Source: Ktedonobacterales bacterium
GTDB lineage: Bacteria > Chloroflexota > Ktedonobacteria > Ktedonobacterales > Ktedonobacteraceae
DNA: 55,718 nt
Assembly (NCBI GenBank): GCA_027311145.1
Contig: DAICZM010000001.1
Coordinates: forward strand, 1 to 55,718
Reading direction: 5' to 3'
Of the stretch, positions 9,554 through 31,523 are shown in pieces; position 1 is the first letter of the stretch; each line of letters begins with the position of its first letter. The translations under genes and the position numbers were made by a program. Below the pieces are notes generated by a model. It made no database searches. It was not told the DNA's origin and saw nothing but the letters and a program-made list of their open reading frames with translations.

Positions 9554-9652
9554 GGATGGAATTTATTGCATCCTGTCGGAGAGGGTACGTGTCCAACGTT
9601 GCTTATGATGGCGCGCTGGCATATGCCTTGACCATCAAATAGAATAGAGAAA

Positions 9653-9840
9653 CGACCGAAGACAGCAAGTATACCCGCAAGGTGTTATAAAGAGCGCGCA
9701 GCGTGCGTTCGCTTGCCGAGGCATTCCCACACACCTATTTCGTGTGCCATAGGCCACTCGTGGCAATGTGCATGAAGCGTGGCGTGTTCTTGGAAAAAGA
9801 TTGCTTCTAAACCTTCGGTATCCATACCGAAGGTTTTTTT
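9653..9840 (+). ncRNA. Ribosomal protein L10 leader (autoregulatory mRNA structure)
   Basis: Between rplA and rplJ the sequence carries the core of the conserved L10-binding leader. CGAAGACAGCAAG (9656-9669 region) faces GCTTGCCGAGG (9711-9721), so GCAAG and CTTGC can pair across a variable arm and leave the characteristic AGACAG/CCGAGG internal elements. An attenuator terminator stands at its 3' end. In known cases, L10-L7/L12 binding to this RNA lowers expression of rplJL; that mechanism is applied here by family knowledge. Confidence 0.75.
9809..9840 (+). terminator. Attenuator upstream of rplJ
   Basis: A perfect 12-bp stem (AAACCTTCGGTA 9809-9820, TACCGAAGGTTT 9825-9836) with a TCCA loop runs into a T-tract ending at 9840. 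It lies 43 nt before the rplJ start. Because it precedes the gene, it acts as an attenuator rather than an end-of-operon terminator. Confidence 0.9.
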
Positions 9841-9883
9841 ATAGACCATACGATAATTTGCTCAGGAAGGAGGAAGGAAATAC

Positions 9884-26544: not shown

Positions 26545-27390
26545 CTAGAAGAGCAAATAATCGTTCTTTTGCCCGGTGAGTAGCAAGGTAAATTGATACA
26601 TGGCAAAAAGTTCGAGCGCGAATGGTAGATAGCCCATATAGCCAAGTACAGGCATTTCAAAGATTTTGAGGAAGCCAACATATGGAATGGTATAGTACCA
26701 TTTGGGCAGCGCAAAATAGTTCCACATCTCCCAGAAGAAGCCACACCAGAGACCGGCCAGTGGTAACATGATAAAACGCCAGTCGCCCACTGCGATATGC
26801 GCAAAAGCCGATTTACGCCCAAACAGGTTGTTGATAGGATCGAGTAAGAAGACCAGGCAGAGCCAGATCAGCTCAAAGAAGTAGTGTGGCAAAAGCCAGG
26901 GCAACACAAATGTGACGATGCCCAGCACTTCCAGGCCAAGCAAGATTGGCCAAGAGAGGCGTGGCCCGGGCGTGTTAGCAGACAGGCGTGGGTGGAGTGG
27001 CTTGAATGTAGAGAATAGCTCGGCGGTTACCATGACAGCTGGTAGGACCGTGCTGAAGTTGAGGCTGGCAAGCAAGAAATAGGCCAGCGGACTGTAGGGT
27101 TGGTCCAGACGATAATGCCAGTTTTGCACTGGCACATTGAGCCACTCGAAGACCCACCAGAAAACGCTAGAGTAGAGAAAGAGTTGTGGGTATCGCCAGC
27201 GCATACGTCGCAGGAGTGATGTACCATGACGCATGAAAACCAGGCTATCGAAGGTTAAGATATAGCCCAGCCAGAGTGGAAAAAAGCTAAAGCGGGACAA
27301 TGGGTTGATATGCAACCAGGATATTGCCCAAGCACTGAGGCACAGAGCTAGCCCAAGATAGCCGTAAAGTGGGAAGAGATGTTTTTTCAT
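26545..27390 (-). CDS. Polytopic membrane protein of unknown function, coupled to the CarH-like regulator
   Basis: ATG 27390 lies 4 nt after the upstream regulator's stop and has no SD, so it is probably translated by coupling. The 281-aa product begins MKKHLFPLYGYLGLALCLSAW and has about seven hydrophobic segments. Conserved-looking blocks rich in Trp and Tyr stand at helix ends: VFEWLNVPVQNWHYRL and FFWEMWNYFALPKWYYTIPYVG, then FEMPVLGYMGYLPFALELF. I do not recognise the family. A membrane enzyme acting on a lipid or carotenoid would fit the regulator's type, but that is a guess. Confidence 0.8.
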   Translation of the reverse strand: MKKHLFPLYGYLGLALCLSAWAISWLHINPLSRFSFFPLWLGYILTFDSLVFMRHGTSLLRRMRWRYPQLFLYSSVFWWVFEWLNVPVQNWHYRLDQPYSPLAYFLLASLNFSTVLPAVMVTAELFSTFKPLHPRLSANTPGPRLSWPILLGLEVLGIVTFVLPWLLPHYFFELIWLCLVFLLDPINNLFGRKSAFAHIAVGDWRFIMLPLAGLWCGFFWEMWNYFALPKWYYTIPYVGFLKIFEMPVLGYMGYLPFALELFAMYQFTLLLTGQKNDYLLF

Positions 27391-27394
27391 AAGG

Positions 27395-28576
27395 TTAATT
27401 TTTATTTTCAGCGCGGCTCTGTAGCATGCCGCGCAACTGATTGATAATTGCTTGGAGGTCCCCATTGAGATAGATGCCTGGGATTTGCGTGATGACATTG
27501 GGATAGTGCGCGAACACCTGACCTCCAAAGGTGAAAATGGGGCGTGGCTCTGGCTGTTCTTGTACCTGGTGACCCAGATCAATCAAGGCTGAGAGATAGG
27601 TCGGCACGGTCAGTGAGATGCAGAGCAGTGCCGGGGCCATTGTTCTAATCGTCTGCAATAGTCCTAGCGTCTCTATGCTCTGTCCCAGGTAGGCCACGCG
27701 CACACCACTACGGCGCAGGAAGAGGGCCAGCATGAGGGGAGCCAGTTCATGGGGTTCGCCAGGCGCGCTACAAACAATGACGAGTGGGCCAGTGTCAATG
27801 CTGGGCGTGACGTGGTAGAGGTTAGAAAGCAGACCACGAAAGAAATTGCTGGCAAAATGCTCAACCGAGACAGTAATCTGTCCCTCGACCCAAAGCTGCC
27901 CAATCTGCCACATCGTCGGCGCAATCAGTTCCGTACACACCTGCTCAACCGGATAGATTGCTAACATGGATGCTAATGTCACATGTGCTGCCGCCTCATC
28001 AAAGGACTGAAAAGCTTTTTGCAGGCGTCCACGTGCGCTACGCATGTTGTGGATGGTTGGGAAACCGCTTGTCGGCTCTTTCATGCTCGTAAATTCGTCT
28101 CCCAGACGTAGTTCGGGCCAATCATGGGCAGTTGTCTCGGACTGTTGCTCTTTCTTGAGCTTTTCGAGTCCGTTTGGTTCTTGTTGTTCTGCCGGCGTGG
28201 CCATTTGAAAGCCTGGTGGCCCTTCTGCGCGTCCCTGCTGAAACTCGCTCTCCGCTGGCTTGTTGGTTGCCTGTTTTTCCTGGGCGGCTTGCTGTTCTTC
28301 ATACATATGGCGAAAGAGCGCAATCGCCTGGCTAATTGCTATGCCCTCATCAACACGTTCTTTGAGCCAGCGAATCATAGCGATATCGCGTTCTGAGTAG
28401 AGGCGATAGGCGTTATTGGCCCGTTCTGGCGAGAGTAGTGTGTAGCGGCGTTCCCATGCTCGTAGTGTTGGTGCTGGCACGCCCGTCTGTTGGACTACTG
28501 CTTTTGTGTTGAAAATAGGAGCATCTGAGTATTGCTCCTGCTTGGGTAAGTCAATTGGCCCTTCACGTACTGTCAT
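27395..28576 (-). CDS. CarH-like MerR-family regulator with cobalamin-binding domain
   Basis: The 393-aa product starts with a MerR DNA-binding domain (FNTKAVVQQTGVPAPTLRAWERRY, then YRLYSERDIAMIRWL). A Gln/Glu-rich linker (about 92-165) joins it to a four-helix cobalamin cap with the exact CarH signature W-x9-EH (W229...E239-H240). A B12 Rossmann domain follows with the lower-ligand motif GEPHELAP (H276). In characterised CarH proteins adenosylcobalamin supports a DNA-bound tetramer in the dark, and light breaks it. That behaviour is inferred here from the motifs. ATG 28576; its own promoter and a flanking inverted repeat lie upstream. The downstream membrane protein is translationally coupled. 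Confidence 0.9.
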   Translation of the reverse strand: MTVREGPIDLPKQEQYSDAPIFNTKAVVQQTGVPAPTLRAWERRYTLLSPERANNAYRLYSERDIAMIRWLKERVDEGIAISQAIALFRHMYEEQQAAQEKQATNKPAESEFQQGRAEGPPGFQMATPAEQQEPNGLEKLKKEQQSETTAHDWPELRLGDEFTSMKEPTSGFPTIHNMRSARGRLQKAFQSFDEAAAHVTLASMLAIYPVEQVCTELIAPTMWQIGQLWVEGQITVSVEHFASNFFRGLLSNLYHVTPSIDTGPLVIVCSAPGEPHELAPLMLALFLRRSGVRVAYLGQSIETLGLLQTIRTMAPALLCISLTVPTYLSALIDLGHQVQEQPEPRPIFTFGGQVFAHYPNVITQIPGIYLNGDLQAIINQLRGMLQSRAENKN

Positions 28577-28636
28577 GCGCTTTCTCCACTCATCCTCGGC
28601 TCAATGCAAGAAGGCTCCAGGCAAAATGGCACACCA

Positions 28637-28669
28637 GTATGGTAGACCACCTTGTATAGGATACCATAC
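28637..28669. promoter_or_regulatory. Candidate operator flanking the -10 box of the CarH-like gene
   Basis: GTATGGTA (28637-28644) and TACCATAC (28662-28669) are perfect inverted repeats 17 nt apart. One arm lies in the -35/-10 spacer and the other just after the -10 of the regulator's own promoter. Binding there would block transcription, so autorepression is likely. Confidence 0.6.
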
Positions 28670-28681
28670 AATAGAGGGCAA
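28653..28681 (-). promoter_or_regulatory. Promoter of the CarH-like regulator gene
   Basis: On the minus strand TTGCCC (plus coordinates 28676-28681) and TATACA (28653-28658) are separated by exactly 17 nt. Transcription would begin about 70 nt before the ATG at 28576. Confidence 0.65.
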
Positions 28682-28808
28682 GTCCACGCTTTGCATAGTT
28701 TTTGTTCATCCTCTGCTTGTGGTATGTATCCCCTTCTCGCTACGTCAAAATGATGCATCAGTGGACGAAAGTGGGTAATCGCTGATGCTGTTCTGCTGTT
28801 CCAAACAA

Positions 28809-28837
28809 TTGACAGCCTCGGAAGATCGTGATATGAT
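28809..28837 (+). promoter_or_regulatory. Strong promoter of rplU-rpmA with a long leader
   Basis: A perfect TTGACA (28809-28814), a 17-nt spacer and TATGAT (28832-28837) make a near-consensus promoter. The start codon of rplU is 264 nt downstream, so the mRNA has a leader of about 255 nt with no convincing gene. Such a leader could carry L21 feedback control, as known in Firmicutes, but I could not match a known L21-leader consensus. Confidence 0.8.
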
Positions 28838-29101: not shown

Positions 29102-29527
29102 ATGTACGCAGTTATTAAAACGGGTGGGCGACAGTACAAAGTGGCTGTTGGCCAGACCATCGAAGTCAACCGTCTTGCGCTTGAAGACGGGCAGCAGGTT
29201 CAGTTTGATGAAGTGCTGCTGATCTCTGACGCGGATAAGGCGATGATTGGCACGCCACTCCTCGAAAATGCAATGGTGGTGGCGACTGCTGTCAAGCAGG
29301 GCCGAGGCGAGAAACTCATCGTTTTCCGCTACAAATCGAAGAAGCGTTTTCGCCATAAGAAGGGTCATCGCCAGGAGTTGACGATTCTGACGATTGACGA
29401 TATTGTCGCCAATGGTAAGAGCCTGGTGACGGGCGAAGCACCTCAATTACACACAAGCGTATCCGACGAGAGCGTGGTGACTGGCGCAGAAGCCGACACG
29501 GCAGCTCCTGTAGATGAAAAGGAATAG
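29102..29527 (+). CDS. rplU: 50S ribosomal protein L21
   Basis: L21 binds 23S rRNA domain II. The 141-aa product starts [25 protein letters not shown] and has the conserved basic segment [25 protein letters not shown]. The usual protein is ~103 aa. The extra ~35 residues form an acidic, Ala/Val/Glu-rich C-terminal tail. rpmA follows after 5 nt, the standard arrangement. Confidence 0.97.
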
Positions 29528-29532
29528 AAGCA

Positions 29533-29859
29533 ATGGCACATAAAAAAGGTGTAGGTAGCTCTCGTAACGGGCGAGACAGCAATCCTCAGATGCTGGGTGT
29601 CAAACGCTTTGATGGGCAGCTTGTGACCGCTGGCAGTATTATCGTGCGCCAGCGTGGCACGAAGATCAGGCCCGGCAAAGCTGTTGGCGTTGGTCGCGAC
29701 CATACGCTGTTTGCCTTAATTGATGGCTATGTCAAGTTTGGCCATGATACACGCCAACGCCGCTCAGTGAGTATCTTGACCGAGTTTCCTGATCGTCCCT
29801 CAATTGCAGATTTGATCGCACAATACACGCCGAATGAGAATATTGCCATCGTTGACTAA
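29533..29859 (+). CDS. rpmA: 50S ribosomal protein L27
   Basis: L27 reaches toward the peptidyl transferase centre. The 108-aa product begins [29 protein letters not shown] and has [29 protein letters not shown]. It lacks the cleavable N-terminal extension found in many Firmicutes, because HKKG follows the initiator Met-Ala directly. The C-terminal ~20 residues extend past the usual end. Confidence 0.97.
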
Positions 29860-29987: not shown

Positions 29988-31523
29988 TTAGTTGTTGCCG
30001 TTTTGTTGGTTGCCAGCGGGCGGTTGCTGGCGTGTGCTTGGACAGACGACGGTTACCGTGTTATTGGCAAACGAGAATGTGCAAGATTGTCCGTTGATCG
30101 TGGTTGTGCCAGCGCAATCAGCCAACGTTGTGCCATTGACATTGCAGGTGGGGGTGTTTGCAGAGCCACTGCCTCCACTTGCGCCCGGCGTGACGCCGTT
30201 AATCGTGGCCGAAATCGCCACCCCATTCTCATCGGTGCGGACGCTGACAGGGTCGGGCATATCAAGCAGACCAACACAGTTCAGGCCATTGGGGCCATAA
30301 GTTGCGACAAAACGCTGGGCCAGGAAGGTGAAGAGATTATTAGCCATTGCGGGGGCCAAGGAGGGCGCGGTGATGGTAAACGTGCTGTCTAGCAGCAGAC
30401 GGGCCGGAGCGATCTGCCGTAGATTTGTGCAATAGGCTTTGGTGTTGGCGGCCCCAAGATTTGGTGCAAGTTGCTGATTGACGCCAAGGCGATAGGCATT
30501 GATTTTTTGCAGGTTCTGCTGACCGTTGACAACGACCATATCGTCGCGTGATGGCACAAGGGCAATGGGAGCTTGCTGCTGCGCGGCTGCTTGTAGCTCA
30601 TCGAGTGGCAATGCGGTTGCCATTTGACCAGGGTTTGCCAGGTCAGGAGCCATCCAGGGCTGGCAACCAAGCGAGCCATCAATGGCGATTGCCAGTAGAC
30701 GATTGTCGCTTCCGTTGACCTGCGTCTGGGCGTTCTGTAACTGTTGCGCGTTGGCCGCCGTCATCTGAGCGGTCTGCCCATTACCTGTCACCAAGTAGGC
30801 GGTGGTGACGTTATCACTCTGGTCCATGTCAACGACAGAGAAATCGCGCACTGATGGGCAGGTTAGGCCATCTTTGGCTTTGCCCAGAGCAGGTGGATGG
30901 AGTTGACCGCGCTGAATGGCCTGATTCGCGGCTTGGAAGAACGTGGGCGCATTGCAATAGCCGACTTGTCCAAAGATAGAGCCATTAATCGGGCCATGAA
31001 TGCCATTCACACACTGCCCATCATTCAAGCTGTTCTGAACGCTGCGTAAGCGGAGTTGATTGCCATTAAAACCAAACCAGATAGCAATCACTGCACCTTG
31101 TGGTAGTTGAGGGACGACAGGTGCAATGGCGGGCTGTGTGCCTTTGTCAATAACCAGTGGGTCGTAGACAGATATCTGGCCTGTTGCCGTATTAATGACT
31201 GCTCCTTGTACAAAGGCAGCCTGATTGGGGTTGGCCTCATTGCAGGGACCGTTATCGGGGTCGGTCGCGACAAGTTGGTAGGGTGTGGCCAAACCCGTTG
31301 CCGAAAGTGGCTGTGGTGGTACAATTAATGTGCAATTCATGTTGACCGCCGCTGCATGTGAACCCAAACGAGGCAGAACAAAGAAAAACGCACCCGCGCC
31401 AAGCGCGATTATCACAGTGATTGCCGCACCAATGAACATCAACGGAGAGAAGCGTTGCCGTCGGGAGCGCAAGGAGCGAAACTGGGAGTCTGATATTTTT
31501 GGTGGTCGAGTCAATGTTTGCAT
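29988..31523 (-). CDS. Membrane-anchored extracytoplasmic protein of unknown function
   Basis: I do not recognise the family. The 511-aa product has a basic N-terminus (RSLRSRRQRFSP), one membrane helix at about residues 28-50 (MFIGAAITVIIALGAGAFFFVLP), and a long outside part rich in Asn, Gln, Ala and Thr. About a dozen Cys in that part suggest disulfides. Near the C-terminus are short Cys-bounded units (CNVNGTTLADC, then CTFSF and VVCPS) and a Gly-Ser linker, ending in a Pro/Asn/Gln tail. It stands alone between the rplU-rpmA terminators and a 533-nt gap. No enzyme motif is visible. Confidence 0.8.
   Translation of the reverse strand: MQTLTRPPKISDSQFRSLRSRRQRFSPLMFIGAAITVIIALGAGAFFFVLPRLGSHAAAVNMNCTLIVPPQPLSATGLATPYQLVATDPDNGPCNEANPNQAAFVQGAVINTATGQISVYDPLVIDKGTQPAIAPVVPQLPQGAVIAIWFGFNGNQLRLRSVQNSLNDGQCVNGIHGPINGSIFGQVGYCNAPTFFQAANQAIQRGQLHPPALGKAKDGLTCPSVRDFSVVDMDQSDNVTTAYLVTGNGQTAQMTAANAQQLQNAQTQVNGSDNRLLAIAIDGSLGCQPWMAPDLANPGQMATALPLDELQAAAQQQAPIALVPSRDDMVVVNGQQNLQKINAYRLGVNQQLAPNLGAANTKAYCTNLRQIAPARLLLDSTFTITAPSLAPAMANNLFTFLAQRFVATYGPNGLNCVGLLDMPDPVSVRTDENGVAISATINGVTPGASGGSGSANTPTCNVNGTTLADCAGTTTINGQSCTFSFANNTVTVVCPSTRQQPPAGNQQNGNN

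Follow-up and report, generated by a model that had tools for sequence, protein, structure and literature searches.

A CarH-like regulator gene and the gene of a membrane protein from an undescribed family lie next to each other on the minus strand of the window, the whole 55,718-nt stretch of DNA that was analysed. It belongs to the incomplete genome of a soil bacterium (Ktedonobacterales, Chloroflexota). The regulator of 393 aa is encoded at 27395–28576, and the membrane protein of 281 aa at 26545–27390. In our judgement, there is an even chance that the regulator is an autorepressor of the CarH kind dependent on adenosylcobalamin (AdoCbl), which controls itself and the membrane gene and is released by light or AdoCbl shortage. 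In the dark, the regulator loaded with AdoCbl would oligomerise and bind to three tandem repeats of 11 bp that cover the –35 element of its own promoter. The bound regulator would silence its own gene and the membrane gene. Light would break the Co–C bond and release the regulator, and a shortage of AdoCbl would be an alternative trigger of the release. Both proteins would then be made from genes transcribed together, the membrane protein through coupled translation.

The pair is divergent from the rplU-rpmA genes (29102–29859, plus strand). These are preceded by a strong extended promoter, TTGACA-17-TATGAT, at 28809–28837 on the plus strand, which is also divergent from the regulator. Two other features of the window were recorded. 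A ribosomal protein L10 leader (RF00557) at 9638–9848 (plus strand) scored slightly over the threshold. A 511-aa protein at 29988–31523 (minus strand), which is conserved in relatives, has a hydrophobic N-terminal stretch and gave zero Pfam matches.

Domains and key residues of the regulator

The Pfam domains MerR_1, B12-binding_2, and B12-binding were all found above their cut-offs in the regulator. Its layout consists of a MerR DNA-binding domain (residues 24–89), a four-helix B12 cap (184–253), and a Rossmann B12 domain (266–360). The AlphaFold2 model has a mean pLDDT of 83.8, and the linker at about 111–174 is of low confidence or disordered in it. CarH was the top fold match of the model, and the B12 half was superposed by Foldseek on the structures of Thermus thermophilus CarH (TtCarH) at about 2.2 Å with a TM of about 0.87. 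The Thermus structures are also the closest PDB sequence relatives of the regulator. The cap carries G226xxW229 and E239-H240, which together make W229-x9-E239-H240, and the Rossmann domain carries G273-E-P-H276-E, G298QSIE302, and G351G352. The earlier note had recognised a CarH-like protein from the W-x9-EH and GEPHE motifs, and this assignment is confirmed by the residues and by the three Pfam domains.

The W-x9-EH cap motif is present in all 27 members of the Ktedonobacterales clade of this regulator. The Gly, Trp, Glu, and His of the cap and the lower-ligand His are invariant in the same 27 orthologues. From the B12 motif D/ExHx2G/P...SxT/V...GG, the regulator has E274-P-H276, SLT, and GG, with Ala at the G/P position after HxL; this position is Ala in 12, Gly in 10, Ser in 4, and Pro in 1 of the clade members. 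Against the NCBIfam CarH equivalog NF052513, the regulator scored 120.6 bits, below the cut-off of 400. Identity as CarA, the B12-independent protein, was rejected, as it would need the cap Trp to be missing and the Trp is present in 27/27. In a broader form of this idea, the regulator would resemble CarA or class II LitR, bind DNA without B12 and use a partner protein as its switch. Two such relatives, CarA (partner CarS) and PmlR2 (partner a short LOV protein), are precedents (PMC9304148, PMC9758184), and the long, poorly ordered linker is in favour of it. However, class II LitR has no Rossmann B12 domain and CarA no cap Trp, whereas both features are intact here. In a general inspection of the neighbourhood, no CarS or LOV gene was noticed next to the regulator. 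We consider a partner-switched regulator quite improbable.

In the tree, the 27 Ktedonobacterales regulators form one clade (support 100/99) apart from the carotenoid-linked paralogues. Therefore, judged from its sequence, the regulator is a real CarH relative but not a carotenoid CarH. Relatives carry the carotenoid-linked CarH as a second, different paralogue, and the identity of our regulator to three of these proteins (L203, L204, and L207) is 28–31%. They have the same domain order and cap motif. On the other hand, they contain GxxxP and adjoin phytoene synthase-like, phytoene desaturase-like, and lycopene cyclase genes. In their genomes (G033, G041, and G029, respectively), the paralogue is divergent from the carotenoid genes, and a PlsY-like membrane protein and a glycosyltransferase-like gene lie downstream of it. 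A CruF-like carotenoid gene is found elsewhere in the window's own genome (L140, G000:C712), where the lycopene cyclase domain gave only a weak fragment match.

With CarH of T. thermophilus (5c8d, 5c8e), the regulator shares the MerR domain, the four-helix cap, and the Rossmann B12 domain, as well as the GxxW, EH, and GxxH motifs. It differs in its separate clade, in the absence of His after the cap Trp, in GxxxE instead of GxxxP, in its long interdomain linker, and in being unlinked to carotenoid genes. The published light signature is composed of GxxW, EH, GxxH, and GxxxP (PMC11796333), and the first three of the four are found in the regulator. GxxxP is replaced by GxxxE/D in 27/27 clade members (GQSIE in the window), but Thermus CarH and the nine further paralogues that were examined have the Pro. 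Position 230, which corresponds to His132 of Thermus CarH, is His in none of the 27 members. The bis-His light state of Thermus CarH is formed through this residue, which comes right after the cap Trp, and the H132A mutant is unable to monomerise after light (PMC11796333). The missing His does not preclude light sensing, since CtMerR of Chloracidobacterium (8jbs), whose CarH-like B12 domain also has no bis-His residue, is experimentally light-responsive (PMC11796333). CtMerR has the full published signature, whereas GxxxP is missing from our regulator. A light response of the regulator is a plausible prediction.

The same residues could be read as the loss of effective light switching. The regulator would then sense the supply of AdoCbl only, repressing when it is plentiful and releasing when it is scarce. 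The lack of the bis-His residue and the GxxxE/D across the clade, with Pro retained in the carotenoid-linked paralogues and TtCarH, point in this direction. However, the example of CtMerR argues against it, and there is no variation in the cap residues holding the adenosyl group. We regard AdoCbl-only sensing as unlikely, though worth keeping in mind; the gene neighbourhoods that bear on it are described below.

Promoter and predicted operator

The experimentally defined CarH operator is composed of three TnnACA at 11-bp spacing and a –10 (PMC9304148). Comparison of the upstream regions revealed three 11-bp steps, TGAACAAAAAC TATGCAAAGCG TGGACTTGCCC, at 28708–28676 on the minus strand, which end in the –35 element. 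The recurring promoter consists of TGGACT (28681–28686), located within the third repeat, and TATCCT (28658–28663), placed 17 nt past it. This layout, with three 11-bp direct repeats and the –35 in a repeat, is also that of Thermus CarH. The promoters of 27 regulators were scored against the literature rule of three TnnACA, with a –10 required and shuffles as control. Ten of them, from five genera and two families, matched 9–11 of 12 positions (shuffle p 0.003–0.017), and the window promoter matched 10 of 12 (p 0.007). A clear match was absent from the other 17 of the 27 promoters. Therefore, the operator is divergent or lost there.

The derived motif occurs as an exact copy six times in 47 genomes, always upstream of a regulator orthologue. 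The motif was built from most of these six sites, and the G021 site was not used in the derivation. One of the six copies sits in a genome without the membrane gene. The search at this high stringency, by which divergent operators would be missed, found no further convincing targets in the 47 genomes. A wider regulon based on other operator copies was rejected, as the other near-matches examined fall inside coding genes. In the window alone, the relaxed repeat pattern was found once against 0.53 expected, which is not beyond chance. The support for the operator comes from its position and its conservation.

A different operator had been proposed in the earlier note, namely the inverted repeat GTATGGTA-N17-TACCATAC. 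It is present at 28637–28669, but at chance frequency and unconserved, and was rejected as the operator. Perfect inverted repeats of 8 bp with 3–30 between the arms occur 118 times in the window, and the complementarity of the arms is lost even in the sister genome (L003), whose membrane protein is 80% identical. The left arm coincides with the recurring TATGGT(ATA) –10 region. The promoter proposed with it, TTGCCC-17-TATACA, is not the recurring one and gives way to TGGACT-17-TATCCT. The three tandem repeats at 28676–28708 are the better operator candidate.

The gene pair and the membrane protein

The membrane ORF starts with ATG at 27390. The spacer of 4 nt after the TAA of the regulator (27391–27394, minus strand) contains no SD, as had been described. 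Of the 30 Ktedonobacterales genomes having the membrane gene, 23 carry the regulator immediately upstream of it and in the same orientation. The pair is kept in the families f1, f2, and f4 of the order. Overlaps of 1 or 4 nt between the genes are common in f2 and f4, which suggests translational coupling, and the intergenic gaps reach about 250 nt in genus g9 of f1. All paired genes cluster inside the Ktedonobacterales section of the membrane-protein tree, so the pair probably goes back to the ancestor of the order. A downstream ECF sigma gene was considered as a third operon member and rejected; it is about 1.3 kb away in the sister genome, and in the other relatives that were examined it was not found next to the pair. 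The unit is of two genes and is not strictly obligate. Co-conservation of the pair, which had been named as a check, holds for the 23 genomes and fails in 12 of 47 Ktedonobacterales genomes, where the regulator is kept without the membrane gene. The compact self-regulated two-gene unit envisaged earlier finds support in the fold, the key residues, a CarH-type operator, and the pairing, but its palindromic operator and exact promoter do not.

The pairing could also be historical. The chief targets of the regulator would then be its own gene and loci elsewhere, with the membrane gene carried along as an expression passenger. Such a history would fit the 12 genomes with the regulator only, the 7 of 30 in which the membrane gene has no adjacent regulator (some at contig ends), and the existence of the membrane family on its own in other phyla. 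On the contrary, the pair is retained in three families, with overlapping genes in two of them, and the high-stringency search gave no further operator. We consider a passenger role improbable.

The membrane protein belongs to no known family, as the earlier note had proposed. Searches of Pfam, NCBIfam, and PDB sequences were all empty, and 57 relatives (40–80% identity) gave zero significant Pfam matches. Among these relatives, 35 alignment columns are invariant. They include two similar stretches, W-W-x-F-E-x2-N-x4-N-W-x-Y and F-F-W-E-M-W-N-x6-W-x-Y. The two halves of the protein (residues 32–95 and 166–234) align weakly with an E of 0.018, which suggests an old duplication. The AlphaFold2 model (pLDDT 94.5, pTM 0.92) shows eight main helices instead of the seven counted before. 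The best structural match of the model in the PDB was the Insig homologue MvINS (4xu4, 4xu6), but it was not significant (E about 0.5, TM 0.35–0.49), and an Insig-like identity was rejected. A viral fold library gave no match to the model. CruF (PF04240) and lycopene cyclase domain (PF18916) proteins likewise span the membrane with several helices and carry acidic and aromatic motifs. However, neither had a Pfam match to the protein, and the profile–profile comparison by hhalign gave no similarity (E 0.65–0.77). Both identities were rejected. By inference, the substrate of the protein is probably lipid-soluble or a component of the membrane.

The family is widespread outside Ktedonobacterales without such a regulator adjoining. 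By record titles, it occurs in Chloroflexota, Bacteroidota, Ignavibacteriota, Verrucomicrobiota, Planctomycetota, Methylomirabilota, Thermodesulfobacteriota, Fermentibacterota, and Myxococcota; nearly all records are metagenome bins, and these labels may err. The gene was present in 28 of 201 Chloroflexota genomes sampled, and no members were found on plasmids. A verrucomicrobial contig (L091) has two tandem copies, and the second match has a stop codon in the matched range. The neighbours vary outside Ktedonobacterales. In five Anaerolineae loci (L059, L061, L077, L082, and L111), the membrane gene comes directly after methylmalonyl-CoA epimerase, with methylmalonyl-CoA mutase upstream. The position after or near the epimerase and the AdoCbl-dependent mutase in some Anaerolineae is a weak lead. 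It also favours the sensing of AdoCbl supply only. However, only one part of Chloroflexota shows this neighbourhood, and the scan of 22 outside loci revealed no cobalamin riboswitch upstream of the membrane homologues.

Significance of the pair

CarH proteins are known mainly as switches of carotenoid genes. Here, a sister branch of CarH in which key residues have changed is associated with an entirely different, undescribed membrane protein, one strongly conserved across many phyla. Quite possibly, though we put it forward tentatively, this distinct CarH-type branch without bis-His and GxxxP was recruited from carotenoids to control the membrane family, which may have a new fold, by light and/or coenzyme B12. 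The pair offers a natural experiment on the residues behind the light sensitivity of a B12 domain. It is also a first handle on the function of the membrane family, because it predicts when the protein would be needed.
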